Positions 26,966-55,512 of a DNA stretch of 64,000 nt are shown one piece after another. Every line of letters begins with the position of its first letter. The first letter of the stretch is position 1. A program made the position numbers and the translations under genes. Source of the DNA: Asterias amurensis (lineage: Eukaryota; Echinodermata; Asteroidea; Forcipulatida; Asteriidae); contig NC_092665.1 in the NCBI RefSeq assembly GCF_032118995.1, positions 16,946,012-17,010,011 on the forward strand. Reading direction: 5' to 3'. Under the pieces are notes generated by a model, which did not search any database, had not been told where the DNA came from, and was given only the letters and a program-made list of their open reading frames with translations.

Positions 26966-27016
26966 TTGTTCACAAACTCTCAATCTCTAGTTTTGTCTTT
27001 TTTTGTATGGTTAGAG

Positions 27017-28222: not shown

Positions 28223-29326
28223 GTGAGTGAGGTTACAGCTTCAGCAGTCGAGGCATGTCAGCAATGCATACTTGAAATTCACTCTCTGTGCTTAAGTTTC
28301 CTAATAGTTCACCTCCAGAATAAAGACTGTACTTTGCTTCATTAATTTCCTTTGTTGTATATTTGTTCAGTCTTACTTGTTCTTCTTGGAAAGTATTTGG
28401 AAGGTAGTATGGAATGTGCTTATCGTGCATGACATTATTCTTCCTACTTTATAGGTGTGTTTTCTGAATTTGTTGGCCTTGGGAAAAAATCTGAAGAATT
28501 GCGATTAAATGGCCTGTCTTTTAGATCATTTTTAGAACAAAATGTCATGCCTGACTTTTTTTTTTTTTTAATAAAATTTGTTGTTTGATTTCCAGCAAAC
28601 ACGGCATCCAAATCCTGGCTCTGTCCCGAGCTCGGGAATTCTTACAGGAGCCTCCCCATCACCATCCTCCAGTCCCGGCGTGGTGAACACACTGGGCCTG
28701 GCAACTGGTACGGCCCATGACATGAGCAACAAGGGGGCACCTAGCCGCCCAGGTCTCGCTCCCTCTCCCCCCCAGCAAGGCAATGTGGTACAGCAGCAGC
28801 AGCAGCAGCCACCTCAGGGGATGATCATTCAGTCACCATACTTGATACAACAGCAGAGAGGAGCAGTAAGTAGTGATTTGCGCTATTTTTCAATTAATCA
28901 GAAGGAAACACTTGAAAATCTTAACCTGGCTTCGAAAGGTGCTAAACTCTTTTTCTGATCAGTTTGGAGTGTTTAATTATTGCCATTGATCAGCTTAGGA
29001 ACAAGTTGGTGAATGATGTGTTTTAACAATTAAACATTCCTACAATATAATTCAGAAAAAGGACAATGCAGAATGAAAAAATAAATTGATTCTAAATGGA
29101 TGTTTTACCCTTTACAGCAGATGTATGTCCCGATGAGTAACCAGCAGAATCCACGTGGAGCAGTAAGTAGTGACTTGGGCTATTTTTCAATTTATCAGAA
29201 GGAAACACTTGAAAACCTTAAGCTGGCTTCAAAAGGTGCTAAACTCTTTTCTGATCAGTTTGGGTGTTGAATTATTCCCATTAATCAGCTTAGGAACAAG
29301 TTGGTGAATGATGTGTTTTAACAATT

Positions 29327-29545
29327 ATTAGGGAACATGTTGCCTTGAATCGGACGAGTTGAAAAGCATTTGTAACCGTTTGTTATAAAATGCATATGGT
29401 TAGAAAGATGTTTTAAAAGTAGAATACATTGATCCACACAAATTTGCCTCGAAATTGCGTGATTTTCCTTTTACTTTGCGAATTAACATGGTCAGCCATA
29501 TATGGGAGTCAAAAATTTGACTCCCATAAATTGCCGAATTTTTAA
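29327..29545 (+). mobile_element. MITE/SINE-like insertion ending in a foldback
   Basis: Inserted in copy 2 between a re-inserted piece of intron 1 and the end of intron 2; absent at the copy 1 site (before about 3600). It starts GGGAACATGTTGCCTTGAAT and ends with the inverted repeat TATGGGAGTC/GACTCCCATA around AAAAATTT. It is non-coding. Elements with this 'GGGAACATGTTGCC' head are, from memory, abundant in several marine invertebrate genomes. Confidence 0.55.
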
Positions 29546-32500: not shown

Positions 32501-33205
32501 CTACAAACGAGATGAAGAACGTAAGAAGATGGAAGGCCTCCAAGCTCAGATGGCTCCACCCCCACCAAGGATGTCTCGTAATAAGAGGGATCAACCACAG
32601 CGAGTTGGTCCCCCTCCACCAGAGGGATGGAGCACGGTCACATCAACAAAGGCTACCAGGGTAGCTGTTGATCCTAATAAGTTCAAGGTCATGAAGGTAT
32701 GAAACTGTCTTCCTTGTTTCACAAGACTCGCTTATTACAAACTTATTTCCCAAGTTGTTTTTGTGTGTGAACTTTTGAAAGTACCTCAAATGATTTGCTT
32801 TGATGAATGCAAGTGCTTTTAAAGATTTTTTTATAAAATGTTATTTTTCACTGGGTGCTTATGTCTTTTATTGTGGTTTGCAGATTTGTTGGTATACATG
32901 TATTAAATATACACATGTATAACCGCAAACTGAATAAACATTGTTTCGGGAAAAATGCAGTCTTTTTATCAAGACTTAAAGAGAAGATGTGATTTGGTTA
33001 TTTGCTTATTTTGTTCTCAGCAACAAAGCATTGATAATGATATCCAACTTGGGCCTAGTGGGCCAAGATCTTTTGGTGGTTGGAGTCCAGGAAGCAGTGG
33101 GGGTAGCAGCAAGACACAGACAGAGCCTCCAGAACCAAAGCAGAATAATCGATTCATGATGCTGTCTGATGAAAGGAAAGGAAGGTAAGATAATAATTAA
33201 CTCTG

Positions 33206-33650
33206 ATGTCGAAGGTTGTGGATGGGGAAGTTGCTGCTGTGTGGCTGGTCTATTTTGATTGCAGAGAAGGTTGTGGATGGGGAAGATGCTGCTGTGTGGC
33301 TGGTCTATTTTGAGTGCAGAGAAGGTTGTGGATGGGAAAGATGCTGCTGTGTGGCTGGTCTATTTTGAATGCAGAGAAGGTTGTGGATGGGGAAGATGCT
33401 GCTGTGTGGCTGGTCTATTTTGAGTGCAGAGAAGGTTGTGGATGGGGAAGATGCTGCTGTGTGGCTGGTCTATTTTGAGTGCAGAGAAGGTTGTGGAAGG
33501 GAAAGATGCTGCTGTGTGGCTGGTCTATTTTGAATGCAGAGAAGGTTGTGGATGGGGAAGATGCTGCTGTGTAGCTGGTCTATTTTGAATGCAGAGAAGG
33601 TTGTGGATGGGGAAGTTGCTGCTGTGTGGCTGGTCTATTTTGAGTGCAGA
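33206..33650. repeat. 55-bp minisatellite, about 8 units, in intron 18 of the eIF4G copy
   Basis: Units of GAAGGTTGTGGATGGGGAAG... TGCAGA repeat every 55 bases (GCAGAGAAGG at 33261, 33316, 33371, 33426, 33481, 33536, 33591). The intact gene has a single unit at 15781-15840. The array therefore arose after the block duplication. Confidence 0.93.
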
Positions 33651-34544
33651 GATACATATAATGCACTTGATCCTTCTCACATTTTCAAAGAGACAGTCAA
33701 CTCTTTGTAGTCTTGTGATTGTTTCTTCAGTGATTGAGAAGGGAACATTAAACCTAGGCCCAGTTAATACTCCTTGGTACCTTGCACATTATAGGTACTG
33801 TAGATTCCAGACTGGATTGCCAAATTGTTGTATTCAATTCTCATTCAACAACTTAACACTCTATCATTTTCGTGGGATCTCAGTGTGGAAGGATGTTAAT
33901 AAAGAATAGTTTTGTTTTATTTCTGTAAAGAAATAACTGGTATGATCCACAGTTCTGTTTTGGCTTTAAATTTAAAGCCATTGCTAGCAGCTGGAGAAAA
34001 ATGTTTAGAGTTGGCTTTCGAAAATATTTCTTGACAAAATAACTCAACTTTTTATTTTGGATCGATTCAGAGTTCCAGAGTCCAAGGGTCGTGGTCCTCA
34101 ATCCTTACAGGGTAAGAGGTCCAGCTCCTCCAGGGAACGAGACGAGATGAGCAAAGAGAGGAGGTCAGCCATGGCTGAAGTCCAGAAAATGTCTCAAGCT
34201 AGAAGATCTCAATCCAGAGAGAAAGATCTGGACAGCAGAGGTTCAAGAGGTAAAGTTCCTCAAACCTTGTAAAGGTTTTGTTTCAAATTAAAAAATATAC
34301 TTGTGTTAATATTTTTATAAAACTTTCAGCTTGGATGTTTTAATGTCTGGTTGATAATTTGTACTTGAAGCAAAGCGCTTCATGCTTCAATTTTGATGGA
34401 TTTCACAACTGGATTATTTATCGTTATTAAATTTGGGATATTTGGGAATCAAGGGTTGGTGAGAAATGTAGGAAACGTCTTGTTGAAATATGGAGACACT
34501 GGTTACATTGAATGGATTTTGGCCTTTTTAACCACCTGTTTAAA

Positions 34545-34625
34545 TTTTACTAATAATAATGAACGGCACTTTATAGCGCTTCACACAACAATCCCAAAGC
34601 GCTTTACAAAAATTAATGAGTAAAC
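34545..34625. mobile_element. Short LINE-tail-like fragment, probably reversed
   Basis: AATAATAATGAACGGCACTT followed by TATAGCGCTTCACACAACAA and CCCAAAGCGCTTTACAAAAA. AGCGCTTTATAAA(TGC) plus an ATT-type tail is the usual 3' end of non-LTR retroelements elsewhere in this window (45080-45150, 49830-49895); here it reads in the opposite sense. It is absent from intron 19 of the intact gene. Confidence 0.4.
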
Positions 34626-34736
34626 AGAATATACCAGAAATATAATATGCTAAAACCAGCCTCAATGTGTTGTTAAAGTAACTTTGTCAGTCCATCAGAT
34701 GTAGAAATGTTTTGCGGGAAGGATTCCAATTCCTTT

Positions 34737-34739
<3 letters not shown>

Positions 34740-34772
<33 letters not shown>

Positions 34773-34820
34773 TTCCCTTGTGGTTTATTATTTGATATAT
34801 ATATATATATATATATATTA
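34740..34820. repeat. Two (TA)n microsatellites before exon 20 of the eIF4G copy
   Basis: TA runs at about 34741-34768 and 34794-34819, immediately upstream of the TATGTAG acceptor. The intact gene has only ATATATTATGTAG here. The run replaces the polypyrimidine region and may weaken splicing. Confidence 0.95.
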
Positions 34821-36440
34821 TGTAGGTAAGCAAGAAGCAGCCCCAGTTTCTGCTCCAGTAAGAGAGATTTCCAGAGCGGCAGCAGCACCAGCTATCTCAG
34901 AAGATGTATTTGAAAAGAAGGCCCTGGCAACGATTAAGGAATTCCTTAGCATTAAAGATGTCGAGGTAAGAAAGCATACTTTGTATCTCTGTAGCTGTTT
35001 GTTCTCAACACTGTTCAAGTATTTTCGAAGTGGTCCATGACATGGATGAAATCTGTGCTGTTTCACCTGAATGTCTGTTTTACACAGTAAGGTATAATAC
35101 ATCAATTGGTAGAGAAAACTGCTGGATTAAATTGACTAGCCTCTGGGTCTGCAGTAAAGTGTATATTTTGAGTCATGTGATAAGTGGAAGGTTTCATACA
35201 GTTAAAGTAAATGTGAAGGAACCCACTGTAGATACTAAAGTGTGAGGATTTAAGAGTTGAACAAGCAAACGAGCTGAAGGATTTATAAAGACGGCAATCT
35301 TTCAATTTTTCAGAGCGCTGATGTAGTTGGGGAAATGTGGCAATCATCAGGATTCACATGGGACATGTTTCTACCAAGTGGAAAAGATGTTCAATAGTTT
35401 GTAAATAATAAGGTACGTGCTATCGTTATTTTCGACTCAATAAGGGTTGGAAAGGAAAGTAACTCAATGGTTTGGGAAGAGTCTATTCTATTCTCAAATA
35501 ACCAGTGAAGGATTTGTTTTGTTCATTCAAACTGTTGAACTTTTATCAACATGAAACAGTACTTGTCAGTGCTGTTTTTTTGTTATATGTATTCATTGAT
35601 ATTGTTTTAGCGGTGCACTATTTGATGTTGGCATAAAAGTATTTAAGTCGCCTATATTAAAGTTGTTTTATTTTTCTAATTTTTAAGAAGATGGAAAAAC
35701 AGTTTCCCGTTGCTATTGATGATCCATTTTGTCAAATTATTTTACAGAAATTAGGTTTTACTTTTTCGACTGGTAGCAGCAGCACAACAAACAGTGGCGG
35801 GGATGCCAATGCTAATAGTCTGTCAGATGAGGATTTGTTCTCACTTATTAAGAGAGAACTTGGAAGCATTCTGGCCACTATTGAGAATGTCAACGATAAA
35901 GTGTTTGACTGGATTCAGGTAAATTACTCAACAAAATGTTAACATATTTGCCGTTAACACTTCCTTTTTTATTTTTATATTTTACTACTTGTTGTACGTC
36001 TTTTATAAACAATTCAGCGCTTGGGCTGCGATGTTTAAATTTTAATGGGCCAATAATAATAACATGTCAACATAATTATTGGGAGTACAATGGTACCTAA
36101 AAATGTTATTTCAAGTTTGTTTGAAGATAAGTGTATTAAGGACTGCACTTTTTAAAAACTATTGTAATAGAGGAAAAGTCATCTGTGGTGTTGCCTTATA
36201 AGTGAAGATTTTGTTCATACACATTGTTCAGTACTTATATCTGTGTCAGTGAAAGCTAACTTGATTATTCTGTCTTTGTATTTTCTCTGCAGAAGAACCT
36301 AAACATATCAAGCCCTGAAAAGCAAAGGCTATTTATCCGTGCCTTAGTGACTGTAGTTGTGCAAAGCACTATCCAAGGTAAGTGACTTTACATTCCCTGT
36401 TTAAAACCACAGATTCATACCTAGCTTAGCCTGATTTGAA

Positions 36441-36790
36441 CGCTCCCCCCCTCTTTCCATACCGAAGGTCTTGTTTTAAGAATATAACAGACAGAGCCTA
36501 AGCCATTCTGCCCCTCTCCATACCGAAAGTCTTGTTTTAAGAATAACAGACAGAGTCTAAGCCATTGCGAAGCTGTAGTACCAGTAACATGGTTGGCTAG
36601 TGCTTAAAGTGCTCCCCATCACCAGTGTGGCCCTGGGCTGATTCCTGGTTAGGGCCTTATGTGAATAAGGTTGCGCTTTGTTCACTCTTTTGCCACAAGG
36701 ATTCTCTGGGCTCTGGTTTTCATCTTTCCAGTGAATTGAAAACTTATGATCTCTGGCTGTGCACTGTGGTGCATCCTTTCTGTTTCAAGC
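36441..36790 (+). mobile_element. Copy 2 version of the intron 25 tandem duplication and SINE-like element
   Basis: Same arrangement as 19778-20125 with few substitutions: two CCATACCGAA(G/A)GTCTTG units, then the A-box-like and B-box-like head. Confidence 0.5.
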
Positions 36791-37785
36791 TAAATTGGCC
36801 AAAACAAACTGTAGCTGACTATGTTATAACTTATGCTCTTTTTTAACATCAGGAGATAAAGCAGAGAGCTGTAGACTGAACCATGATCTACTAAATGTCC
36901 GAACAGCAATCCTGAAGCGTTATATCAATTATGACAACAATCTAGAATTGCAAGCTTTGTATGCTGTTCAAGCCTTAAACCAACATTTGGAAAGCCCTCC
37001 AAGTAAGTTGAAACTAGCCACAATAATATTGTTATAACACACTGGGAATGTTCTCAATTTAGTTTGGGTTTATAATAATGGAATGATCACACGTTTTGAA
37101 TTGTCAGTGTCCATATTAAATGTTGCCTCAATTTGATGTTCTTCTGTTGTGTGCTTATAATATTTGATATTTGTTCCAGTTAATGTAAAAATGAAAAGTG
37201 CATTTGTCTCATATTAAGAATGGTTAACTTTTATTAACTGTTTGTAAGTTCTTATTTTGTAAATGTTTAGTGCATAAATTATGTTTCAATATTTATTTCA
37301 ATTGTTTATAGACGCGGAAAACAAAAATACTTTTCACTTTGTTTATAAGTGTCATGTGTCACAATAGAACAAAACTATACTATACTAATATACTATAACC
37401 ATGGTGTAACTGCAAGCGACTATTAATTTTTTACTATAACCATCCATGTTAAATAAAAGTGTTTTCAATCTCTTGGGTGATAGTTAAAGCATGTTCTGTT
37501 AACAGTAATAGGAACAACACTTGACCAATTTCTTACTGAACGTTTTGTCAAATAATTTGATCACAGTCCTTCAGCGATCCAACCTTCAAGTCTCTATTAA
37601 TCCCTATTTTTATCTCTTTCTTATCTTTAGGACTTCTTGGACTAATCTTCAGTGTGCTGTATGATGAAGATGTCATACCAGAAGAAATCTTCTATGCCTG
37701 GCAGAAAAGCTCTGATCCTAATGAGACTGTTGGCAAGGGTGTGGCTCTAAAGTCGGTTACAAGCTTCTTTGATTGGCTTCCTTGA

Positions 37786-40700
37786 AGCAGAAGAGGAGTC
37801 TGCCAAATAAAATACAAATCTTAACATTTAAACAAGTTTCTTCTCAAAAGATAAAATACATGATGGATGATTTAAGTTTGATTTCACAGCGATAAACAGT
37901 GCCGGATTTTTAACGGAATACACTGCTTGATTATCTCTTCTGCTTTTATATATTTTTCCCTGCAACTTTTAGAATTCCATGGGGTATTGTGTTACTGCTA
38001 TTAGTTATAAGGCTTTATCTGTAATGTTAGGTGACAAATGATGATGCACTAAAATGAAACCAAACTACTCCCCAATTTCAACTCACAAGTGGGATTTACT
38101 GATTGCTTTTCTTGAGAGTTGAGAGTAAGAAATGCTTAGTTTATTGGTGATGGAGATTGTTGAGCTGGAGCAAGGATTTGATGATCTGCTCCAAGCGTTG
38201 GCTCGATGATCGTTGGCTCGATGATCGTTGGCTCCATGATTGGCTTGTTGAACTGCTTTGTAAGCAATGTTGGTGATTAACTGACTTGATAGTGAGTCAT
38301 ATAGAGACGGCTGGAGATTGGAGCTTGTGAAGATTTGTGGCTTTCTTCACTGGTAAACAATATTGGCTTACTGCTTATGACTGGTGGATACCAGCAATCT
38401 CAACATGGCTGAGTTTGTCCAATTGCTCATCCCGGTCTTGTAGGGAAGGTTTGATTGGAAAGTAAAGGAGAGTAATTAAAAAGGTATGGAGCAACAAATA
38501 AATAAATATTAATTATACTAAATAAAAATAATAACAATACTCCATCTTGAACAAGAAAAATAGAGGATGGGGTTGGCATTGTTGGCATCCATCCCCTTTT
38601 AAAACTATTGTTAAGATTATAAAGAACTATTTAAAAGATGTTTAAAAAACGGTTCACCTGTTGGAGGAAGGTAAAAGATGTGTTAAACTGCTGCACAATA
38701 AATGTAGCACTTAAAAACAATATTGAATTAAATTTATTTTGTTGTAACTCATTCATCTAAACTACTGTCTTCAAAAGCATTTGCCTTTGTGATGCATCGC
38801 TGTAGCATTTATACTATCATAGGTTAAGAGAACTGTTTCTTACTCTGATTCTACCTAAAAGCAAATGTCCTGGTCCTCACTTTAGATCCACTTGTAGAGT
38901 AGTATATAGGCCATCCTTGATGGATTGGGAGTTGTCATTATTAAAAAGGGTAGGTCCCTGATTGTTAAAGGATGATTGGACTTTGTTTACAGTTGGGGAA
39001 AACCCCCCAAATCTTTATGATGCAGAGGTTTGAGCTCAAAATATAGCATTGTATAATTTGAAGCTTTGATGTTATCGTACATGCAATTCTGGGTTTCTTC
39101 AGAAAAGGCGAATCAGGATTTTTAAAGGAGATCTTTGGATCTGCTCTTTTTCTAAATTTAATTGTTAAGATTAATTTATTCAGAAGTTACAAAATTTCAT
39201 TTAAGAGTTTATGTGGTATATGTATCTTTTTTGGAAAAGAAATCAAAAGGAGCATTGTTTTGGTCGACTTGGCTTTATTCTTGATATAAGCACAATAATG
39301 TTTGTTATGCTAATCTAAGATTACTTGACCTACAACCCCTGACCTATGACCTGTGATATCATAAATCCCATTTTGATTAATATACTTCATTACTCTAGCA
39401 GGTCAATGCACTTTTGATTCATTGAGAAGAAATTGAACTCAAAGTTGCAATTCTAGCAGATTGTGTTTAGTGGCACTGGAAATGTTTTTAAAAATTAAAA
39501 TCAGCAAAATTGTATTTAAATCATAAGAAACATCACTTAAAAGTGCTGCACAAAATGTGGAAAGGGAAAAATGGATATATATTATTTTAAGAGTTTTATG
39601 CGGGTTGTTGTTTGCTGTAATTTCTTTTCTTTTTTTCACTTTGCTATAAATCTTAAGTGTCATATATGTTGAGCAATTCCTGTTAAATCTGTGACTTGTA
39701 AGGCTTGGGTGTCGAGGTATTTAACACTGCAACAGGGAAAAATGGTCCTTCAAATCTGTTTTTAAAAAAGCTACCAGAGTGATGGAAATGTCGACGTCAA
39801 ATTTATAAGCTTTATTATATCAAATCACTTGTTAACAATATGTAAAGACGCTGTTTACATCAAAATTATAAATTGAGGAGAATGATATTGCTTCGAGTTA
39901 TTTACTTGAATCTAAACAATAATAAATATGCACTTTCATTTTATGAGTATATGAGACAGACTTGATCAGTCATCTGCTGTGAAAGATGAAGCCCGATAAA
40001 AGTATACATGTATTTCAATTTGAGAAGAAAAATATATATGAAATATTAAACAATGTGTTGGACTGAATGTTTTTTTGTTGTATTAAAGACACATACATGT
40101 GGCATGCCCTATATAGGGCAGGGGGTACCCCAAAAGCGCACCCCACCACCTCCAATGTTCACCAGTAAAACGCCTTTTCCCTAGAGAGACCACCAACAAA
40201 TCCTGTAAAATCCGAGTCAAGCTCACAATTAACACACACGAAAGGGGGCGGTGGACGCCATTTCTGTTCTCATGAAGACAATCAGAGCATACTGATCGAA
40301 ACGTCGAGTTAAACTAACGGTTCTTTTCAGAACCACCCCAAACTCATTTAGAGATAATTACATGGTGTTACCGCAAACTCTTCTATATCTTATCTCCACC
40401 ATGCAAAGTTTCGAATCCTACAAAACAAAATTATGTACTTTGAGCTGGTCATTAGCTTGCTGCCTCAAATAGACAAGGAACATTACATACATTTGTAATT
40501 GGTTTTTCTATTACAAATATTGCTGATATGTAATCCACCATAAACATTTACATGACGTCATAACTGAGAAGGGAAATCCCCTTATAGATGGTAACAATTC
40601 TTGCGCAATGCCCTCATTCACGGGTTTTCCCACTGAGTTGTGACGTAGCTATGAAGTGATTGTCAACTACATTAATTGGGTATCGTTGGATCCTCGGATG

Positions 40701-41133
40701 GACTTGGAATGACTACTACAAGAAACAAGTAAACCGACGAGAACACAACTTAACATTATAGGTAAGTTTACATGCCGAAAAACGGCTACGATTTACTGAC
40801 CTTTTCACAGCAACGGTCAATTACAGTTAGTCATAACTTTACTGAATTTATCCACATGGTTGATTGAGGATACGCGCTCAAATGTCCAGAGATCCAAAAC
40901 ACTCTTGAGTTTAAAAAATACAGTCAAAACTATGTAAGTGGTAGTCTAGCTGGTTTGCAGGTGTCAAACTTGCTTGTACCACGTGATCCACTTACTTCTG
41001 ATAACCATGGATCAGGAAAACTAGAGCATTGTAGTTTGCAACTTGTTCAGAATTTGGTCAAATGTGACTCGATGTAAACAAGTTATGGTTTTGGCTTTGA
41101 GAATGTTATTTTTGTCTTTTTTTGTATGGTTAG
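37786..41133. other. 3' flank of the eIF4G copy and leader of the second RING gene
   Basis: Counterpart of 21158-24599. It holds a three-unit 15-bp minisatellite (38198-38246), the hammerhead-like motif (40253-40306) and the probable non-coding first RING exon ending at 40761 with GTAAGT. The intron then runs 40762-41133 to acceptor TATGGTTAG. No other coding exon is visible. Confidence 0.6.
40253..40306 (+). ncRNA. Second degenerate hammerhead-like motif
   Basis: Paralogue of 23766-23820: GACGCC, CTCATGA, hairpin CAATCAG-AGCATA-CTGATCG (one mismatch in the stem), GAAAC, GTCGAG. The stem II changes differ from those of copy 1, so neither copy preserves the fold perfectly. Confidence 0.4.
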
Positions 41134-41135
41134 AG

Positions 41136-41957
41136 ATGGCAACCAATGCACAGACATCGCTTGCCAAGATTGAGGACAGCATCGAGTGCTCAATTTGCAC
41201 CCATCGGTTCAGGCAGCCAAAGTGGCTCAATTGTTTTCATACTTTTTGTCTTCAATGTCTTCAAGAAATCTGCAAGAACCAGAGGCCACCAAGCAACAAA
41301 CTTCCTTGTCCACTGTGCAGACAAGAAACCATCTTGAATGGAAATGTTTCTGATCTGCCAGATAATTTAGACATGAAGAATCTTGTGAACAATTTTACAC
41401 AGCAGGAAAATGTTTTAAAACAACAATTTGAGCAATTACAGGTTTTTTCTACACTAGTTGCCAAAGCCAGAAGAAGTAAGACTGAGTTTGAGCTGTCAGG
41501 GGAAAATATTGACAAGTTCTTTACGAAACTGGACAAAGTGTTTTTGGACACCAAAGAAAAGATCAGCAGAAAAGCTACTAAGGAGGTATCAAGGATCAGG
41601 AATGAGGAGCAAAAACTGATAAAGGAGGCAGAAACTATTCATAAAAGTAAAGTTGAGTTTTTAAAGAGTTTGCAAGCCTCCGACAGAAGAGAAGCATCAC
41701 AGACAGCACGCAAACTAGATGAGGTCAACCACCTTATGGAAGGAGGATCCAATAATGGCAACAAGGGTCAAGATTTCAAGAAGAGAATCTGCAAAGATCT
41801 TGAGAAGGCAATAACGAAACATCCACAGTCTGTTCCTGATGGTTTGACCTTCATGGATCTTAAAGAAAATGATGTGATGATATCTCTTGGTGAACTAGTG
41901 CAGAATGATGCTGACCTGACCTTACTGGTACTTATAATTCTTGTATTTATTGGGTAA
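41136..41957 (+). CDS. RING-finger, coiled-coil protein (TRIM-like without B-box), copy 2
   Basis: 273 codons, the same design as copy 1: C3HC4 RING at residues 18-61 (CSIC, NCFHTFCLQC, CPLC), then a coiled coil. Here the RING ends CPLCRQE, nearer to the usual TRIM consensus than CPLCGQD of copy 1. Most amino-acid differences between copies fall in 41330-41530; the rest is almost identical. Acceptor at 41133, directly before the ATG. A donor-like CTG|GTACTT at 41928 leaves phase 0 after codon 264, and the next plausible acceptor (42616) also opens in phase 0 into the eIF4E-binding exons. The gene may therefore end at 41957 or continue to 44720. Confidence 0.82.
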   Translation: MATNAQTSLAKIEDSIECSICTHRFRQPKWLNCFHTFCLQCLQEICKNQRPPSNKLPCPLCRQETILNGNVSDLPDNLDMKNLVNNFTQQENVLKQQFEQLQVFSTLVAKARRSKTEFELSGENIDKFFTKLDKVFLDTKEKISRKATKEVSRIRNEEQKLIKEAETIHKSKVEFLKSLQASDRREASQTARKLDEVNHLMEGGSNNGNKGQDFKKRICKDLEKAITKHPQSVPDGLTFMDLKENDVMISLGELVQNDADLTLLVLIILVFIG

Positions 41958-42616
41958 CTTGAAGAAACTAAGAATAGCAGACTGATCAATGTTTATGCTC
42001 TACTCTGTCCCAGTCCATTACAAAAGCCTGATGCTTACCCATTGTGAATAACATGAGTCTGCCATCATGAAATTGCAGTTACATTGAGAAAGTGCGCTTT
42101 GTATCGGACTGTTACAGACTTTTGGGCAGAACCTGTGATAAGTTAATGGATTCAAGACGGTACACATTTACAGTCACTTAAAAGACAAACTTGTGATGAG
42201 GATTCAGATATTTGTCTTTGTTTGGTTTGTCTTGAATTTTGGGGACTTTAGTAACATATAGACAATTCAAAGATTCATAAATTGATTGTTTCAAGAAAGA
42301 AACCAGGGACTGGATTTTTTATCAAGTTTGTTTACCAAATTAATTGTATTATCGGTAAATGCTTATCATAAGGCTGACAGCACTAAGGGTTCGTGGAGTT
42401 GATGTCGTTCCAAACCATCATGATATCCAGGGTCAATTTTGCAGAATTCCTGGTCCTACCATAAAACTGCAATCCCAAATGTTAGCATTCTGGGTTTTAC
42501 ATGTCGTTCTTGTGAATTAATGAACATAATGTTTATGTTGTACACTTGTTGTACTTTTTAATCATGCATGGTTTGCAATAATTTTACCATGAAACCATTA
42601 ATGTTTTTGCCTGCAG

Positions 42617-44720
42617 GACAAGTGGACCAGACAAACATGTGCCAAGAATACAACCAGTGTACTGAAATATATTTACAAAGAAGGTAAGAATAAAAGTGGA
42701 TTTACAAGACAAACAAACTCCATTGAGTGAAAATGGGATGCATTTGTTCCAATGTGAGATATGAGTATTCCTCAATCATAAATGACAGCAATTCAAAATG
42801 GATTTGCTTTTACCCTTTTCGGTATATTTTAATCAGTTATTGATTCAAATTACTAATAGAACTGGTTGGCTCAGCATCGTGGAGGTTTTAGCGCAGTTTG
42901 GATTTTATTAAATCGCTTTGGGGTATTTTTCAAGGATCTCCCGGTAAATGGGGTTTATTGATCAAAAGTGGTCTCCAAAGTAAATAACAGTTATTTTCTG
43001 AATAAAACCATTATTTCTGGGTTTTGATATTTTTTTTGGAAGATTTGATATAAGAAAGCATTTTGATTAATGACTTTAATATAATCAATTGCAATTTACA
43101 ACTTTGTACCACTCAGCCGACAAACTGTCAATTTCACTCACAGTCACTCAGTCATTAGTGTTTACAATTTGCTTTCTGGTTACAGATCAATGGAGCCCTC
43201 TGAATCCAGAAGGGAAGAGGGTTTATGACCGGGACTTTCTGCTACAGTTTCAAGGAAATAACTATGAGAGACCTAAAGGACTCCCGTATGTTCCAGGCAT
43301 TACTCTTGAACAGGTAAATAAAGAAATGATCTTTATTTATAAAAACTGGTTTTTATTTTATTTTATAGTAAACATAACTTGTACTACTGCACTGGCTGGA
43401 AAACTTGCTCGCTGTTGACAATTCAACATAGTTACTATGATTACTAATTTAATCTTTTTAATTAAAGTGAATGTACAATACAAGTAATGTAATTTGTATT
43501 TCACATTAAAATTCATACTTTTTTCCAAAGCAAACAATTTTCTTGAGAAAATTTTAAAGAGAAAATTTTAAAGAGAAATTATGTCATTATTTTGACTCGA
43601 AGTAGGCACTACCTGTAAAAAAGTACATCCACTCCCTTTTTGGACCACTCTTCTCAAATTCTGTATTGTTTATCAAACTGCTATTTTTGATCTGATAGCC
43701 CAATGACAACTTTCTCTCAACGGCTGCCATGATGGCACACCGCACACCACAAGTTCTAGTGCCAGCGTTTGGTCTACCGGTAAGTTAACCAGTTCATGTT
43801 AACCAAGTAGATTGCATTGGACATGACTCATCCCCTTAGGCTGTAGGTCCCAAGTGGTTATTTAAGATGACATTAACAATTTTTAAGAGAAAGTGTGCGA
43901 TTCTGACTCGAAGTAGGCAGTACCTGTTAAAAATGCCCATCCATTATGTTGACCACTCTTCTCATAATTGTTCTGTGTTGTTTATCAACATCTGTCAATC
44001 TGTTAGCTCAAGATGGTACGCCACACACAACAACCTCGAGTACCAGTGTATCAGGTAAGAATTGTTACTTTCAAAACGCAAGAAACTAATAATCCATCAA
44101 AGGAGTATTGGTACTGAACTTGTCAACTTGGGGAGGGGGGGAGGAATACAGAGGCACTCCCTCCGCCCCCCCAATAGATGTCTATGTCCCCAAACTTTAT
44201 GTAAGTAAACCACCATGGTCGGGCTGCAAGACTATATGCAGAGATTTCACACAGTGTGCTGAAAACACAATGACATTAATTAACATTTGCACTATCTATA
44301 GTTTTAATTAATAAAGTTCTTATCTTATCTTATCTTAACTTATACTGTGGTTACTTTTAGGTAAATGTCTAGATCCTCCATCTCCAGTCAGCTCTTTCTT
44401 GTTTTAGATATCAATATAAACCACTCTAGTCAATTCTTTGTTCAACCCCAAAAATCTTTCTTGTTTTAGTCAACATTTCTTATCTTAAACACGAACACAG
44501 TTAACCAGTTCATGTTAACTCAGTAGATTGCATTGCAATCCAACTTTACCCCAACTCACGTGACTATTTACATTGTCTTTAAATTGATTGGTGTGTTCTC
44601 TCTTTCCCTGCTAAGGTTCAAACTCCAGCGCCTTTCACATACAACATGATTCGAAGAGGCCCGCATCCTTCCAGTAGCGACCCGCAAATTAGCTGTTATG
44701 ATTATGAGAGTGATTATTAG
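42617..44720 (+). CDS. Diverged eIF4G-type eIF4E-binding segment with short novel tail, five exons
   Basis: Exons 42617-42683, 43186-43313, 43699-43779, 44007-44054, 44616-44720; all junctions are AG/GT and phases agree (0, 1, 0, 0, 0), stop TAG 44718-44720. The first two give LKYIYKE plus DQWSPLNPEGKRVYDRDFLL and PKGLPYVPGITLEQ, equivalent to eIF4G exons 8-9. YDRDFLL is a canonical eIF4E-binding motif. Exon 2 is 128 bases, as in eIF4G, although the DNA has diverged widely, so the protein sequence appears to have been kept by selection. Exons 3-5 encode a short basic tail with recurring M-x-R/H motifs (MMAHRTPQ, MVRHTQQP, MIRRGPHP) ending in YDYESDY. No MIF4G follows. No start codon is found; the likeliest 5' partner is the RING exon at 41134-41927. 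An alternative last exon could be 44746-44851. Confidence 0.7.
43563..44060 (+). repeat. Tandem duplication that created two neighbouring exons
   Basis: 43590-43780 and 43895-44060 share, in order, TGACTCGAAGTAGGCA.TACCTGT, GACCACTCTTCTCA, TTGTTTATCAA, an acceptor, GATGG.ACRCCRCACAC-like coding sequence, and a GTAAG donor. Each unit holds one of the 81- and 48-base exons of the eIF4E-binding gene, both in phase 0. The second unit has lost internal coding bases. Confidence 0.75.
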
Positions 44721-44745: not shown

Positions 44746-44851
44746 AATCATGAAAGTTCTGACTCCACGTGGCGGGCGGATCGTGTTAGTTCACGATTTA
44801 GAAGGAAAACCACACATTTTCGAGAGATATATGAGTCATTATCTTCTACTG
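44746..44851 (+). other. Possible alternative exon, SR-rich
   Basis: Bounded by TTTGGTAG and CTACTG|GTAAGC. In phase 0 it reads NHESSDSTWRADRVSSRFRR and on to IYESLSST, polar and without a stop. It could replace exon 44616-44720. A frame starting at the ATG at 44750 is also open. Neither is recognised. Confidence 0.3.
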
Positions 44852-45150: not shown

Positions 45151-47038
45151 TACAAATACAATATATTATAAACAAGCAAGTTTTTAAATCATGAAGAAAG
45201 TCTCATTTGCGAACGATGCTACTTTAAAAAAAAACTTTGAAACTAGTTAGAAATCTTTTTATGTTCTATATCGGGAGTGTAATAATTGGCTTTATTAAGT
45301 ATGTTTATTGCAGTTAAATAAATTAGTGATCAAACAAACTTTACTTGGTAAGAAGCACTGCAGCTGTTGATAATGTGTAACTTCTTGGGAAACGATTTCC
45401 TAATAAGGAACATGGTGTTTTAGAGAAAGGGATTAAAAAACATTTCAATCTTTGAAATGTTTTGAAATGTTCCACGCAGAGCCGTTTATCAGTTTTTGCG
45501 TTGACATAACGGCTCCAGATTTTTGTGATATTATATTGGTGACATTATATTAATTTTGTATACTTACATGCGCTTTTGTTTTTGATATACCTTTATATGT
45601 ACTGATAAATTCTCATATTATTGTATCATTTTTCAACAAGAGTATGGAATAAACGTCTTATCTAATTGAATATCTTAACGCTACCAGTATCTTTTGAAAT
45701 GTTCTTAGTATATTTTTATTGCATATAAAAATATATACATAGGATTAAAATAACCAACAGGTAAAAAGCCAAAGGTATTTGCCTTTAATCTATCGTTGTA
45801 TTATTTATAGCACAATGCTTGACGACCAACAAGAACTTGTTGGGTTGTGAGTTGAGAAATTTTAATTAGACCCTGTCATTAAGACTTACAAGTCTTATAA
45901 AGCTGGTAACCAAATGTTGATGTGCAACATTATTTATTAAAAAGGGAAATAATGAGACAAGTTTATCTTTGTCAACTTTGTGGCATAATGATGACTGTGT
46001 ATATCTTTGTTCTTATCTTTCCAGAATGAAAACAAAGTTCCCATGCTAATAATTATTTTGAGTAAGTACCAATAGTGTCCACTACTGCCTTTAACTGGAA
46101 GCAATCCATAAAAAGTGTTAAGGGGACGGCTATACTTGTAATTTAGACCAACTCGACTTTCTCAGATTGTGGTATCATGTGGTATTAAATGCAACGTCAG
46201 CTGCTCCTAACAACTGATGAATGTTGTTCATAAAACGTTGTCAATGAGTGTTTGTCAGACGGATGGAGGTTCGTATTGACGCCGGAACAAACAGCAACAC
46301 GTGACTAATAACCAGTCTTACTGCCGCAGTGCGGTAGAGCAATTTAACTTGGGCCAAAAAGCAACACCGTGACCAATAACCAATCTTAACGCCGCAGTGC
46401 GGTAGAGCAAGTTAACTTGGGCCAAAAAGCAACACCGTGACCAATAACCAATCTTAACGCCGCAGTGCGGTAGAGCAAGTTAACTTGGGCCAAAAAGCAA
46501 CAACGTGACCAATAACCAATCTTAACGCCGCAGTGCGGTAGAGCAAGTTAACTTGGGCCAAAAAGCAACACCGTGACCAATAACCAATCTTAACGCCGCA
46601 GTGCGGTAGAGCAAGTTAACTTGGGCCAAAAAGCAACACCGTGACCAATAACCAATCTTAACGCCGCAGTGCGGTAGAGCAAGTTAACTCGGGCCATATT
46701 GTTCAAATGTGGCTTTAGCTGATGGGCACTTACACGTCCAAGTCTGGCGTGTGCCTCTTAAACCACTCTTTTGAGTCTTCTTTACGCAGTGTTTGATACA
46801 TTTTGAAACTACGAGCCAATATCCGGCAAGTGTGTGTATAAGCTTGGATGAAACATCACACCTGAAAGCACCGTTGGGTTCCGTCGTTCAGCATTACTGA
46901 AACAAAGTACCTTTTAGAGACATTTTAATGTTAGTCTTTCGAGGTGAATCCTACTAATTAGTAAACTTGACGAGTTACTTGACAAATATAAATCGGAGAG
47001 CTACCATAATTAATGCTACGTCGATTTCGAGAGGCAGT
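45151..47038. other. Intergenic DNA before the TMEM26-like gene
   Basis: AT-rich, no exon recognised, apart from the 68-bp satellite at 46298-46695. The TMEM26-like promoter and 5' UTR should lie in its right part; no clear promoter element was identified. Confidence 0.5.
46298..46695. repeat. 68-bp satellite, six units, centred on a near-palindrome
   Basis: GCCGCAGTGCGG recurs at 46323, 46391, 46459, 46527, 46595 and 46663. Each unit includes CAAGTTAACTTGGGCC (with the perfect palindrome CAAGTTAACTTG) and GTGACCAATAACCAATCTTA. The outer units diverge and the inner four are almost identical. Confidence 0.95.
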
Positions 47039-50000
47039 ATGATTTGGTTCTCCATTTTTAAAGCCATTTTGACCCGTCTGCTTTTTGCTGGCCACACCAT
47101 AGCAGCCATCCAACTGATTGTTGGACTGAAGTCTGACACATCTTACTATTTATTGGCCCTAGCTTCATTGGTTCAAGTGGCCGAGTTAATCTTCACGATG
47201 GCTTGGAAAAAGGGAGGGGAATGGAAGTGGTAAGTTGAGTATGTTATTTCGTGTATTAAGTTTTTTTTAATACAAAACTGTTCAAAATTTACTCATGAGC
47301 AAGCATTGGCATGGTATACGGACCAGAGTACATACGAAACTGGCGCACTTGATCCTCACATTCTGTAGACTTGAGTCCTTACATTCTGTAGACTTGAATT
47401 CTTACATTCTGTAGACTTGAGTCCTCACATTCTGTAGACTTGAGTCCTCAAATTCGGTAGACTTGAGTCCTTTCATTCTGTGGACTCAAATCCTACCATC
47501 CTCTGGACTGAGTCCTCATATTCTGTGGACTTGAGCTTCACAAAATAAACTTCGATTTTTTTTCTGACGAGGAAATATTTAGTAAGTGTGGTTATTGTTT
47601 CAAAGTGAAGTAGAACAGCATTATTGTAATAGGTCTATATTACCTAACCACAATGGAAGTAGAATAGCATTATTGTATAATAGGCCTATATTACCTAACC
47701 ACAATGGAAGTAGAATAGCATTATTGTATAATAGGCCTATATTACCTAACCACAATGGAAGTAGAATAGCATTATTGTATAATAGGCCTATATTACCTAA
47801 CCACAATGGAAGTAGAATAGCATTATTGTATAATAGGCCTATATTACCTAACCACAATGGAAGTAGAATAGCATTATTGTATAATAGGCCTATATTACCT
47901 AACCACAATGGAAGTAGAATAGCATTATTGTATAATAGGCCTATATTACCTAACCACAATGGAAGTAGAATAGCATTATTGTATAATAGGCCTATATTAC
48001 CTAACCACAATGGAAGTAGAATAGCATTATTGTATAATAGGCCTATATTACCTAACCACAATGGAAGTAGAATAGCATTATTGTTTAAACGGCCTTTATT
48101 ACCTAATCACAATGGAAGTAGAATAGCATTATTGTATAATAGATTATTATTGATTACAACGTCTTGATTTTGACGGCAGTAATTACCTGTTTGTAAGAGT
48201 TTTAATGATATATAGTTTGGTTTCACTCATCTGAATTTCTAGTATGTGGCTTGAAAGGGGTAAAAGTCCATTGTAAATAACTTGAAAAGAGGAAAGACTT
48301 AAAAACGGTTATTTTGGTGAGAAGTCGCTTTAATAAGCTCTTATAAAATGACATCGATAATGTTGGCTAAGATGTTTGTATCCCCCTCGTTCAATCAATA
48401 TAAAGTACATATTTCAAGATGTATAATAATATGTCACTCCTGATGATATGAGGTATCCGATAATGCGCTCAACAATAATTTACAATCTGACATCTTGACT
48501 AGACCGACATATGGTTATTAATGAAATAAAAACCTTCCTCATGCCAAATTCCGGCAGGTCATTCAGACAATTTCTTGTTAGAGGTGAAACAGATTTTAAT
48601 CTTATTTTTTGTTCTGTATTAACGATTTGTCTCAATGAGTGTAGAATTTTGACTTAACTCTACATAATATTGGCAGACTGAGGAAGACTTGCACTGTATT
48701 CAAATTTACCTGACTTTGAGAGAATAACCACCTTTAACATTTGCCACCACTTAAAGTCATCTTCAAGTACGCGTCTTATGATTAATGACCTAAACGATCT
48801 TAGCAAACCAAATAGAAGCCGATCAAAATAGAGCCTTCAATTTTAAGCCGTCCAAAAGTCAATTGCTACGGTACTACATCATTCAGACAAAGCCGAAATG
48901 AATTCGTAGTCAGTATTAATTTCCGTTTCATCGTAATTAATTCGTATCTTTATGAGGAGTGATGGCGATGGTATTGAAGGGGAGACTATTGCTGCAGATT
49001 GATTTGGAGACTCTGATGACCATAGCCATCTTATAAAACTGACTGCTTGAATATAGCAGTGTACAAGCAGGTTCAAAAGGCACGCTTACACCCACTCTTA
49101 TAAAACCGGGTCATTATATCGGGTCATTTCTGGATCAAGCTGACCTCCTCTACAGTGGCATGACCGATGGTGGACGGGGGGCGTCGCGGGTGGGGGAGGG
49201 GATCGGGGCATGAAGATATATCAGAAAATACAATGATAGGATCTTGTCCTGGTTCTGAATGGATCTCATACAACCACCAAAATAACAACTTTAGCTGTCA
49301 GTAACTTTACAAGTTTTAGTAAACTCATTATTTTATATTACATTCAACATTGGGTTAAACAATATATTAATTTTGCTCTTAGGTTTTGCCCAAGCGTGAT
49401 CGTTTTTCTCTTTGGATCAGTGCCGGCTATTTGGGTATTGGAACTGGAGTTGTTAGAGCGCCGCTAAGCAACAATGAAACATGTCAACGGTGAGATAGTG
49501 GATGATGTCCAAAAGGTAAGATCGTGGGCAAGATTTAGTTTAAATTTCAGTACACTTTATGCAAAACGTTTTAGCCTTATTTGTTTTGTTTTTACCTAAA
49601 CTCATCAACAATGATCACTTACGAACGACACATTCAGAATGATGTAGGCCTTACGGCCCTTTTTATGCTTACTATTGCTAAACTTTAGTGTACCAATGGA
49701 GGTTTTCACAGGATGATGACGAAATGATGGAAAGACACAATGATTTATAATAAACACGTGGCATTTTAAATGTTGTGCAAAGGCGAGTCGGATCGCTCAA
49801 TATGACTCGGTGTCTTTTAAAGTTTTTCTTGACTGTACAGCGCTTTGAAACAGTGTTAAAGCGCTTTATAAATGCATCTAAGTTAAGTTATAAAGTTAAG
49901 TCTAGATCTATATTGGAAGGGGATACAGGACGCCAGACTTAACTGTTCGTGTCCATAATACAAAGGTGGAGCTGGATGTGACAAGGGAAGTCGACTTGTA

Positions 50001-50970
50001 ACCATGGAAACACTAAAGTCTTCTCTTGGTTGACATGACATTATTATAGTACACGGAATAAACACTAGAATACAGACAACAATGAAATAAAAGCCTAGTC
50101 AATATAATTCAATCTTATCATTTTACTTGATAGGATAATGGGCAGACGCAATGGATCTTAGTGGTAGAGCAGATGCTACCATTACTTCTTATTGTCGGTC
50201 GATGGCTTCTACCTAAAGGTTCCATTACACGAAATGAACTATCGGAACTCTTACTCGTTTACTTCGCTACGGCAGCTGATATAATTGAATTCTTCGATGG
50301 GTTTAATGAGGTTAGCGTCAAGTATGATCGTTCACTGGTATTCACCCTTCTCACCTTATGGAGTTGGAGTCTTATTCAATTCGCTCTCGTTATGACGTCT
50401 ATCAGGGACCAGCGTGGAACTTCTTCCAGCCAGTCAAAACCGACTACACCTAGTGATGGTCAACGTAAAATAAAGAGGGCTCTATTCAAAAGGTTTCCGC
50501 GTTTGGCCTCGTCTCGAGTCGTTAGACCTCTACCCACTTCTGAAACGAATGACGGATTGATGGTCATACCAATTAAACCTAAGCACGAGATACGTGAAGA
50601 CACGGTACCAACGTTCACTTGTCTAGATACAAGTGTCTGGTCTATAGTAGCAAGCCTACTCCTCCAAGACGCTCCATTCTTAGTATTTCGTCTGACATTA
50701 ATTCTTCGCTATCAGGTCTATAGTCATACTAATGTCTTCTTCACATGCAAAAACTCCCTAGTGATTGTGTTACAGACTTACAGAATCTTCGTTCTGCATA
50801 TAGAAAGGCGCGAAAAGGTGCGACTTCAAAAGAAGGCTACGGATGCAACAGCAAAGAAAATAGCAAATCTGAAGAAAAATGGGTTTTTGTTTGTACACGA
50901 GAAGAATCTGCCGACAAAAGAACATGATGAAGACCCATACGATGCCGTCTCCATGAATTCTTCACAATAA
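47039..50970 (+). CDS. TMEM26: Transmembrane protein 26 (TMEM26)-like, three exons, with one in-frame TAA
   Basis: Multi-pass membrane protein of poorly known function. Exons 47039-47229, 49383-49515, 50134-50970 (phases 2 and 0). Exon 1 reads KAILTRLLFAGHTIAAIQLI and a second hydrophobic helix, then GGEWKW; exon 2 FCPSVIVFLFGSVPAIWVLE; exon 3 PLLLIVGRWLLPKGSITRNE, ATAADIIEF, a helix with WSWSLIQFAL, LLQDAPFLVFRLTLI and the final CKNSLVIVLQTYRIFVL helix. These match human TMEM26 in order, and total length (386 codons) is close to 368. Codon 92 (49465-49467) is TAA, yet the frame afterwards stays open to a good donor and joins exon 3 in phase. This may be a nonsense allele, a sequence error, or a young pseudogene; an ATG at 49474 could start a shorter form. 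Confidence 0.85.
47345..47535. repeat. 23-bp minisatellite (ACTTGAGTCCTCACATTCTGTAG)n, about 8 units
   Basis: In intron 1 of the TMEM26-like gene, just behind its donor. Units vary most towards the right end (TGTGGACTCAAATCC). Confidence 0.9.
47615..48150. repeat. 51-bp minisatellite, about 10 units
   Basis: AATGGAAGTAGAATAGCATT followed by ATTGTATAATAGGCCTATAT and TACCTAACCAC repeats every 51 bases (47652, 47703, 47754 and so on). Because 51 is a multiple of three, long frames are open on both strands; they are not genes. It lies in intron 1 of the TMEM26-like gene. Confidence 0.95.
48151..49382. other. Remainder of TMEM26-like intron 1
   Basis: AT-rich sequence with a short G-rich stretch near 49170-49205. 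No exon, repeat family or RNA gene was recognised. Confidence 0.5.
49790..49900 (+). mobile_element. LINE 3'-tail-like fragment in TMEM26-like intron 2
   Basis: GACTGTACAGCGCTTTGAAA followed by CAGTGTTAAAGCGCTTTATA and AATGCATCTAAGTTAAG. The GCGCTTTATAAATGC end matches the other LINE tails in the window. Confidence 0.5.
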
Positions 50971-51777
50971 AGAGCATCAGTTCTTCAAATCGTCCGTGGA
51001 CTACTTAGCATCTGATGCACTAAAGAAATAAACCACTATTTCTGGTTTGTTTCGTGTAAGTGACGTCTAGATATATGCAAGCCATATTAAAAGAAAAGAG
51101 GACCTTTATGCAAAGTTTTTTGTTTATTTAATTTCGCTAGTTTGATTGATGATGTTTCATGGCCACATTCGATGTATTGCTGACGATGGCACAATGTCGC
51201 AACAGCAATGGAGCCCTTGTTTTTCGTGCTAGTTAGTAAATTAAGTGCTACATGTTATGTCCTCCACATTTCTGCTTGTCGCCATTTTCTTCTTACCACT
51301 GTTTTGTTAGTTTATTTGTTGTTTGTGTTAGTGTGTTATTTAGCCTTCCGAGGCCAGGCTATGGTCAAGACTAAAGATCCGTAAAAAATATTTGCACTAA
51401 ATTGCTTTCAAGCAAAATAATTAAAAGATCAGTTGTGGCGTAAGAAGTGACGCAGACTTTTGGAAGAAACATTTTTGGTCCACTGTATTGAGCGACGAAC
51501 CATCGGAAAGGTGTATAGGCCTATATGACCCCATCCGTTAAAGCTAGTCGTTTGCCTCATAACTTTATATAATAACTAAAACAAAAGGTGTCTTGAATAA
51601 ACTGTCTCCTCAAAATAATGAATGCATGATTTGAAACGGCATGCCAGTCACCATGTGCTAGTCAGTCCCGTACGCGGGTCCAGTCCCGTACGCACTGGGC
51701 GAGGCCACACAGTTATGTGCGGTGGAGTAAACACATATTCTTACAAACAAACGAACGCAAATTGTGCCATTTCCAAG
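50971..51777. other. Intergenic region: TMEM26-like 3' UTR and F-box gene 5' region
   Basis: No exon is seen. Just ahead of the F-box start is a short direct repeat of CAGTCCCGTACGC (about 51664 and 51681). An ATG at 51622 is in frame with the F-box coding sequence, but its context is poor and its 52-codon extension is not F-box-like. Confidence 0.5.
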
Positions 51778-53442
51778 ATGGCGACGCCCATCGCAGAATC
51801 ACCGGAACTGGAAAATCTATGTGATTTGGAACAAATAACTCATCTCGATGTCAATGAAAACAACAGGAAAGAGGTGGACGATTGTAAGAGTGAAGTAACA
51901 TATGAAGCATCGATCGATAAACTACCCGAAGAAGCTTTGACCAATGTAATATCGTTCGTTTCCGATAAATGGTTGCTGAATTGTGCCCTCGTCTGTCGGC
52001 TTTGGAGAAATGTCATCAAGGGGCAGACACTTTGGCGGAAGAAGTGTTACCGAACAAGCCGATTCATTGAGAGGTATATGGCACCCTTTTATCCGGAAAA
52101 CTGGAAGGAATTCTACCTGAAATCTCCTTATACTAGAAATCTCATCAAGAATCCAAGTGGCAAAGGTTAGCTTTTGACTTTGTTTGATAAATCTCTACGC
52201 TATGTTGTAAAAAATAAAAAATAAAAACAGAATTGGAAATGTATGTTACCTTTTATATCATCAATTAAATAGGTTCCCTGGCTAAAACCATCTTATAAAT
52301 AAATTTGTGATGTGATTCATTTTTTAGTTTTTTGAAGGCAGATATACTGGATGGAGGAAGCAAGGATTAAGGAACACAAACTAAACGGTTTATTAAAATT
52401 TTAAAAAGGGCTGCAAATGTTCTTTGATTCTTAATTTTGAATAGGCCAACACCATATTTGATTTTTAAGTACTTTTTTTCAATTAAAAGATGGTGTTAAA
52501 GGTGGCTGGATCATAACAGAGAATGGAGGAGATCGTTGGGTTGTAGAAACTGGAGATCATGGTTCTGCTAAGAAACCAGATAAACTGCTTGCAATTAGTG
52601 ATGGAAGCCCTACTCAATTTGCCACATCATACGGATTGTGTCAGCGTTATCAGCTGATTGACCTTTTACAAGAAGGTTTCTCACCTGCTATGCTGGATGA
52701 AGGGCAACCAGATATAGTCATCTCTGAATGGTAAGTCATTTACATAAAAAATAAAGGAATGGGGAGATGTTGTCGAACAAGTACTGTAGCTCACAAAGCT
52801 TTGGCTTGAGATGAGTTTCAACATTCTTTTCCCCTACCCCTACAGAGTGGAATGGAATCTTTCCCTCACCCTGGATCCATCTTTTTGTATCTGAAAACAT
52901 AACGATGGCTCGTTTGTTACAACCCTCAAGAACAATTGCAGTTCAAAATTATTACAGTTTGTTTTTTCTTTGTTGTTCAGGTATGCTGCACGTTTTGACT
53001 GTGCAAATGTTTACTCACTGAAAGTGCAACTACTGAGGGAAAATTCAAATGAACCAGTCAATATTATTGAAGAGTTTGTTTTTGGACCAATTGAAACACA
53101 ACAGTGGGCTCCGAATGACTGGAAAGAGGTAAGTCTAAGTTATTAACTATTGCAGCTCACAGGTGCACTTATTTGTTTACGCCACTAAGTGGCTTTCAAA
53201 TTATTGGATGCCACACTAACATTACATAATTCTACAATGAGTATAAAGACCTTGACTAGAGTCATGTTGCTTTTATTTATCCATAGGTTAGACACATATT
53301 CTCCAATTACGGAAAAGGCTTACGGTTTATTAAGTATATGGATGAGAGCAAAGATAGACAGTTCTGGGCGGGGCATTATGGATCTAAGATGGCAGGATCA
53401 GTTGTCAAGCTTCAGTTTCATAAGGATGATCCAGATGAATAA
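51778..53442 (+). CDS. F-box protein with FBA domain (FBXO2/FBXO6/FBXO44 group)
   Basis: Substrate receptor of an SCF ubiquitin ligase; relatives with this FBA fold bind N-glycans on misfolded glycoproteins. Exons 51778-52165, 52490-52730, 52981-53128, 53287-53442; phases 1, 2, 0; 310 codons against about 295 in vertebrates. F-box at residues ~47-92 (IDKLPEEALTNVISF, LNCALVCRLWRNVIKG, LWRKKC). FBA domain from ~105: FYLKSPYTRNLIKNPSGKG, GWIITENGGDRWVVE, FATSYGLCQRYQLIDLL, ISEWYAARFDCANVYSLKV, then RQFWAGHYGSKMAGSVVKLQ. The aromatic pair FW sits where Fbs1 contacts chitobiose. The start at 51778 has an A at -3 and G at +4; an AATAAA overlaps the end at 53438. Confidence 0.92.
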
Positions 53443-55269: not shown

Positions 55270-55512
55270 ATCACAGGACTCGGTGCAAATTTAACATATC
55301 TTATATCGTTGCGGTACCCCTGCCAAAACACTCTAGCTACCGGGCAACCTCGGAAATCTAGTTGGTAAGACACTGCTCTAGAATTGCAAGGGCCGTGGGT
55401 TCGAATCCCACCCGAGCCCGAGTAACTTGCCTGTGATAATTTTTCACAGGACTCGGAAAGTACCGAGTATACAGTGCTAACACACATCGGTGTATGGGTA
55501 AAAAAAAACGGT
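55270..55512 (+). mobile_element. tRNA-derived SINE
   Basis: The tRNA-like head at 55347-55418 has an A box (TAGTTGGTAAGA) and a perfect B box (GGTTCGAATCC) in a 5-bp T-arm (GTGGG/CCCAC), and CTCGG/CCGAG ends that can pair. The body has the hairpin CTGTGA...TCACAG, and the element ends GGTGTATGGGT followed by A8. The left boundary is uncertain. On the minus strand its head gives the database-familiar peptide RVGFEPTALAI, here the C-terminal end of the GPCR frame. The body resembles SINE2-type elements of sea urchins as I remember them. Confidence 0.8.

Follow-up and report, generated by a model that had tools for sequence, protein, structure and literature searches.

The region analysed is a 64,000-nucleotide stretch of the genome of the echinoderm Asterias amurensis (contig NC_092665.1, positions 16,946,012 to 17,010,011 of the forward strand; hereafter, the window), which harbors a near-complete eIF4G gene, a second and incomplete copy of it, two closely related RING genes (RING1 and RING2) and a set of five exons (E1 to E5, Table 1) encoding an eIF4E-binding segment. 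A preliminary description of positions 41134-44720 had proposed that RING2 and the eIF4E-binding exons form a single fused gene; the parts it listed are all present, but no mention was made in it of eIF4G, of the other RING gene or of the tandem duplication of the locus. The analysis reported here gives about even chances to a different reading, according to which tandem duplication has shaped the locus and two adjacent genes are present, the second being a partial eIF4G copy (42617-44720) that would have kept the eIF4E-binding region.

The self-alignment of the window disclosed that most of the eIF4G gene, a spacer and RING1 (unit B) are repeated in tandem as a second unit (B'). The two units correspond in collinear blocks of 87-99.6% identity, aligned from 2135-28218 to 28223-42325, the long blocks being 91-97% identical. 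Unit B' is without 6237-14911 and 17292-18659 of B, plus smaller pieces, and the stretch 24600-26987 of B is likewise unmatched in B'; the first of these segments is 8.7 kb long and includes the eIF4G exons for eIF4E binding and MIF4G. The units end 384 bp (B) and 368 bp (B') beyond the stop codons of the respective RING genes, so that the eIF4E-binding exons, directly 3' of B', lie outside the duplication (from 42326 on) and are followed by TMEM26. The order of the blocks suggests that, before the duplication, the arrangement was eIF4G, RING, eIF4E-binding exons, TMEM26. At the 8.7-kb deletion, B' contains a 230-bp patch (32102-32331) that matches 20332-20567 and 36995-37219, as though it had been copied in while the locus was being rearranged. 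Each unit also contains one Rfam match to the histone 3' stem-loop (23827-23872 and 40314-40359, both on the + strand); neither was seen to adjoin a histone gene, no search aimed at histone genes having been made, and these matches are possibly part of a repeat element.

The eIF4G model includes the eIF4E-binding exon at 9070-9197, a MIF4G open reading frame (ORF) at 13861-14166 (Pfam, E 1.5e-16) and a stop codon at 21155-21157; its predicted first exon (1660-1737) is uncertain and some middle exons are absent from it. Two further ORFs of the region (16743-17027 and 18998-19276) have no Pfam match. The W2 domain was recognized in the second eIF4G copy (Pfam, E 1.8e-10). Over the 698 codons compared with the intact gene, this copy shows 23 non-synonymous and five synonymous differences and one stop; exons have been lost and its last reading frame is terminated sooner than in the intact gene, so that it looks like a pseudogene.

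RING2 displays the eight zinc ligands of a C3HC4 finger at RING spacing (C18, C21, C33, H35, C38, C41, C58 and C61) and matches Pfam zf-C3HC4 beyond chance (E 2.3e-6, 27.8 bits against a cut-off of 21), in agreement with the preliminary description. Its best match among solved structures is 7zj3 (E 6.1e-11), a RING of the TRIM2/TRIM3 type, and no B-box family appears among the 16 Pfam matches of RING2 (E <=1) or the 20 of RING1 (E <=10); NCBIfam gave no above-cut-off match for RING2. An AlphaFold model of RING2 built from two sequences had an unusably low mean pLDDT (predicted local distance difference test score) of 41.8. In-frame ATG codons exist 5' of 41136, but a start there was rejected because that stretch is not common to RING1. 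A search for relatives of RING2 in collections of viral, bacterial and archaeal contigs returned pattern matches, none of them confirmed, which are uninformative for animals.

Of the changes that separate the two RING ORFs, 15 are non-synonymous and 11 synonymous (dN 0.023 and dS 0.065, the rates per non-synonymous and synonymous site, respectively), with an excess of synonymous changes (P 0.0098) and a dN/dS ratio of 0.35 (0.34 by NG86 and 0.45 by YN00). Codons 1-61, spanning the RING domain, contain zero amino-acid changes, and 22 of the 26 differences (13 non-synonymous, nine synonymous) fall in codons 62-137 (27200-27427 and 41319-41546), a patch that appears conversion-like. The pair thus shows signs of constraint, which a pairwise comparison cannot assign to both copies. 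RING1 has stayed open although only the eIF4G pseudogene, and no eIF4E-binding exon, lies behind it; together with the signs of constraint on the pair, this fits a RING protein working alone.

Downstream of RING2, the proposed path from 42617 through an eIF4E-binding exon to a tail ended by a stop was recovered as five exons which, once joined, give 142 open codons in one phase. The donors of E1 to E4 rank within the top 0.3-0.7% of the window GTs, according to a matrix trained on the locus. The identity of the binding segment is also beyond chance: it matches Pfam PF21140 (E 9.6e-8, 32.4 bits against a cut-off of 27) and the human eIF4G1 peptide in structure 5t46 (E 1.4e-11), and E2 carries the canonical YxxxxLPhi motif, as YDRDFLL. 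NCBIfam gave no match for this segment, and relatives of E2 sought in a viral contig collection were pattern matches only, none confirmed and uninformative for animals. E4 seems to have arisen by partial duplication of E3, since the intron stretches upstream of the two exons are 77% identical over 118 columns and the exons themselves align with gaps.

Comparison with the eIF4G gene provides an explanation for these exons that was absent from the preliminary description and is now clear. E2 has the same length (128 nt) as the eIF4G exon 9070-9197 and, like it, is entered in phase 1, and the exons that precede them end in LKYIYKE and LKYTYRE, respectively. By blastp, the eIF4E-binding segment shares 35 of 68 residues with eIF4G; a stretch of 43 residues that ends in E2 includes 27 identities, and third positions differ in 26 of the 43 codons (NG86 dN 0.26, with dS undefined; YN00 failed on this pair). 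In a simulation where the copy decayed neutrally, eIF4G changed only synonymously and the mutation rates were equal, seven rates were tried with 2000 runs each and no run matched both values (27 identities and 26 third positions), a result spanning a single 43-codon exon and assuming the same mutation rate on both branches. The substitution pattern of E2 fits constraint at the protein level, and pseudogene decay throughout its history was rejected by the simulation; a recent death is still compatible with it. On the basis of the shared length, phase and residues and of the simulation, the eIF4E-binding exons are identified as an old fragment of eIF4G, a gene that is also present intact elsewhere in the window. 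In tblastn searches with the eIF4G model (which is without some middle exons), E2 was the only part of eIF4G found in 41958-64000 (next hit, E 2.6), with no MIF4G around it, and none was found in 37786-42616 (best E 9.8).

Table 1. Coordinates of the features recognized in the window.
Feature	Position	Strand	Basis
Duplication unit B (most of eIF4G, spacer, RING1)	2135-28222	+	self-alignment
Duplication unit B' (eIF4G pseudogene copy, spacer, RING2)	28223-42325	+	self-alignment
eIF4G, near-complete gene model	2546-21157	+	ORF survey, simple gene finder
eIF4G copy, startless and internally deleted	28596-37785	+	self-alignment, codon comparison
RING1 (273 residues, 95% identical to RING2)	27017-27838	+	ORF, alignment
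RING2 (273 residues, RING and predicted coiled coil, ends TAA)	41136-41957	+	ORF (ATG 41136), Pfam, structure matches
Top donor inside RING2 ORF, GAA/GTAAGA, phase 1 (would fit E2, not E1)	41476-41481	+	trained matrix
Proposed fusion donor, CTG/GTACTT, phase 0, weak	41928-41933	+	splice matrices
E1, eIF4G-like exon end (LKYIYKE)	42617-42683	+	acceptor in top 0.5% of AGs, donor in top 0.3% of GTs
E2, eIF4E-binding exon (YDRDFLL and LPYVPGIT)	43186-43313	+	Pfam, structure matches, exon comparison
E3, in-phase exon	43699-43779	+	weak acceptor, strong donor
E4, in-phase exon	44007-44054	+	weak acceptor, strong donor
E5, last exon (coding 44616-44717, stop TAG 44718-44720)	44616-44720	+	splice/ORF analysis
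TMEM26	46958-50967	+	Pfam, E 2e-13 and 4.2e-54
F-box/FBA gene	51622-52731	+	Pfam
Rhodopsin-type seven-transmembrane receptor	55361-56923	-	Pfam

Beyond the eIF4E-binding exons, the window contains the last three genes of Table 1. Tandem repeats of about 51 bp occupy 47607-48142. An Rfam tRNA match (55349-55416, + strand, 35.4 bits) is not called by ARAGORN. At 59926-60989, a 48-bp tandem array is open on both strands, with ORFs of 402 and 440 codons.

In the two-gene reading, RING2 would be a TRIM-like gene lacking a B-box and terminated by its own stop codon (41957), an assignment held with the same even confidence, and its product is probably an independent putative ubiquitin ligase. This reading builds on what the analysis demonstrated, namely the tandem repeat, the homology of E2 with eIF4G, the matching exon layout and the constraint-like pattern of E2. 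If the downstream gene is expressed, its short protein would occupy the site at which eIF4G binds eIF4E, and would bring with it no eIF4A, eIF3 or ribosome; a 4E-BP-like competitor of eIF4G is the most likely product. The second contact offers a hint in the same direction: LPYVPGIT in E2, set against LPHIPDIV in the local eIF4G, is closer to what 4E-BP has there (PGVT). The 4E-BP family gives a weak match to the E2 copy (Pfam E 0.0091; PDB 5bxv, E 0.024) and none to the matched eIF4G segment at E <=10.

Several observations weigh against this reading. The 4E-BP likeness involves about two residues, and the Pfam eIF_4EBP score (16.3 bits) is below its cut-off of 24. The acceptors of E3 (0.29, equalled or bettered by 13.8% of AGs) and E4 (0.15, 15.1%) are weak and E1 and E5 have negative codon scores, so that either a recent gene death or wrongly chosen 3' exons are possible; the gene finder indeed selected a different last exon (44746-44851). 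To these points, the narrow span and the equal-rate assumption of the simulation should be added. Moreover, a separate start exon for the 42617 gene did not turn up in the search for single-exon starts in 37800-42560 (multi-exon starts were not searched), and the strong acceptor of E1 requires an upstream exon if the gene is alive. As the preliminary description had noted, the eIF4E-binding exons offer no start codon either, there being no in-frame ATG in E1 or E2. Among the 24 candidates running from an ATG to a phase-0 donor in that interval, RING2 itself was the highest (19.4; the next outside RING2, 1.0), a score that reflects the coding signal of the RING gene, which was part of the training set. 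Lastly, neither AATAAA nor ATTAAA occurs from the RING2 stop to 42689; with 67 such signals in the 28 kb scanned, a gap of this size is not unusual.

The missing start exon and the weak acceptors of E3 and E4 would also be accounted for if the eIF4E-binding exons were a dead, promoterless fragment of eIF4G in decay, like the younger copy at 28.6-37.8 kb, which belongs to the same array and has the look of a pseudogene. The two weak acceptors raise the weight of this explanation, which nonetheless seems rather unlikely: 142 codons remain open across five exons with four strong donors, and decay over the whole period does not reproduce the pattern of E2, although a recent death would be compatible with that pattern.

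The fusion put forward in the preliminary description would splice the RING exon at 41927 to E1, yielding a protein with a RING, a coiled coil and an eIF4E-binding segment, whose length was correctly given as 406 residues (264 + 142). Such a product would bring ligase activity to eIF4E or act as a PML-like, 4E-BP-like repressor. The proposed donor is present at 41928, and phase 0 is common to both sides of a gap of 689 nt; in addition, the E1 acceptor is strong and no AATAAA or ATTAAA stands between the two halves. Among single start exons for this acceptor in 37800-42560, RING2 scored highest and none of the others was convincing, so that the separate start exon named as a refutation of the fusion did not emerge from that interval. 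The join itself, however, does no better than chance. The donor scores 0.0 with a generic matrix and is equalled or beaten by 9.4% of the 3980 GTs of the window, while the 23 donors of the eIF4G model score from 0.77 to 5.49, a comparison biased against the fusion since those donors were chosen at a threshold of 0. With a matrix trained on the same 23 donors, one of them scores lower than the proposed donor and 19.6% of GTs are equal or better; the equivalent site of RING1 is weaker still (none of the 23 lower, 39.6% of GTs equal or better). Within the RING2 ORF, nine of the 35 GTs reach the trained score of the proposed donor, which ranks last among them; four of the nine are in phase 0. The RING frame, furthermore, reaches its own stop 27 nt beyond the donor, and the RING pair looks constrained with RING1 open in the absence of any eIF4E-binding exon.

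The gene finder preferred the join of RING2 to E1 under all three penalties tried; when the donor was banned and no gene penalty was applied, two genes were returned, the second beginning at 42359 with an exon of ten residues, at a cost of 4.5 units. Its fused model, however, retains only the last six residues of E2, with other exons at the end, and the same program merged eIF4G, RING1 and the eIF4G pseudogene, clearly separate genes, into a single product. On account of this over-merging and of the omission of most of E2, its vote carries little weight, and the model was rejected as proof of a fusion. No description of a RING/eIF4E-binding fusion was found in the literature, the search covering open-licence papers. 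Given that the donor is the weakest of nine and that the binding part is largely missing from the gene finder model, the fusion is unproven, not favoured and, in our judgement, improbable.

A further possibility, independent of the preceding ones, is that units B and B' are two haplotypes placed in tandem by the assembly, the real locus being eIF4G, RING and eIF4E-binding exons. Differences as large as those of the long blocks (91-97% identity) fall within the heterozygosity of certain marine invertebrates. Assemblies are known to contain falsely duplicated regions (PMC9516828). An artefact is, however, quite improbable here, as the window contains zero N and B' is without the 8.7 kb carrying the eIF4E-binding and MIF4G exons and has the look of a pseudogene, which is unlikely for an allele; the finding would change little in either case.

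It is equally doubtful, although conceivable, that the locus generates RING-eIF4G chimeras repeatedly, with every tandem duplication of the eIF4G and RING block setting a RING gene directly upstream of a startless, 5'-truncated eIF4G copy. An old event, whose seam can no longer be seen, would have given a surviving RING and eIF4E-binding gene (41136-44720), with its binding site drifting to the 4E-BP form, and the recent event at 28222, where RING1 stands in phase 0 ahead of eIF4G exons in the gene finder model, would so far have left only a pseudogene.

Under the two-gene reading, and if expressed, the downstream gene would be an eIF4G paralog cut down to its grip on eIF4E, and partial duplication would have offered a route from a translation activator to a 4E-BP-like repressor. 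Were it instead fused to RING2, ubiquitin ligation and cap-dependent initiation would be coupled in one protein. Even without a fusion, tandem duplication can place a RING gene before startless eIF4G pieces, providing raw material for chimeras.

Compared with known systems, the downstream gene resembles eIF4G1 and eIF4G3 in its exon layout, which is that of the local eIF4G, and in the DQWSPLNPEGK..YDRDFLL site with its downstream linker; it differs in having the eIF4E-binding part only, with no further eIF4G part detected nearby by tblastn. Its product would compete with eIF4G for eIF4E as 4E-BP1-3 and Thor do, through YxxxxLPhi and PG(I/V)T, the second contact of 4E-BP1 being reported as PGVTS (PMC8558276); unlike them, it derives from eIF4G exons and stays under the Pfam eIF_4EBP cut-off. 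DAP5/eIF4G2 is likewise a truncated eIF4G paralog, but its truncation (PMC9726905) is the mirror image of the one proposed here. The N-terminal cleavage product of eIF4G, described in a preprint (PMC13081929) as a dominant translation repressor that also needs PABP binding, similarly has the eIF4E-binding part without the ribosome-recruiting part; it is made by a protease, whereas the local protein would be gene-encoded, with no PABP-site exon seen. As regards the RING, TRIM2/TRIM3-type proteins provide the top structure match, from which the local protein differs in its lack of a B-box match in Pfam and of any further domain after the coiled coil. The RING proteins PML/TRIM19, HHARI and arenaviral Z restrain eIF4E (PMC2798714), PML and Z binding it through the RING itself, whereas the local protein, if fused, would do so through an eIF4G-type motif. 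In the ZNF598-GIGYF2-4EHP system, finally, a ubiquitin ligase and a partner of the eIF4E family act together in translation repression (PMC11880988), but as separate proteins and with 4EHP rather than eIF4E.

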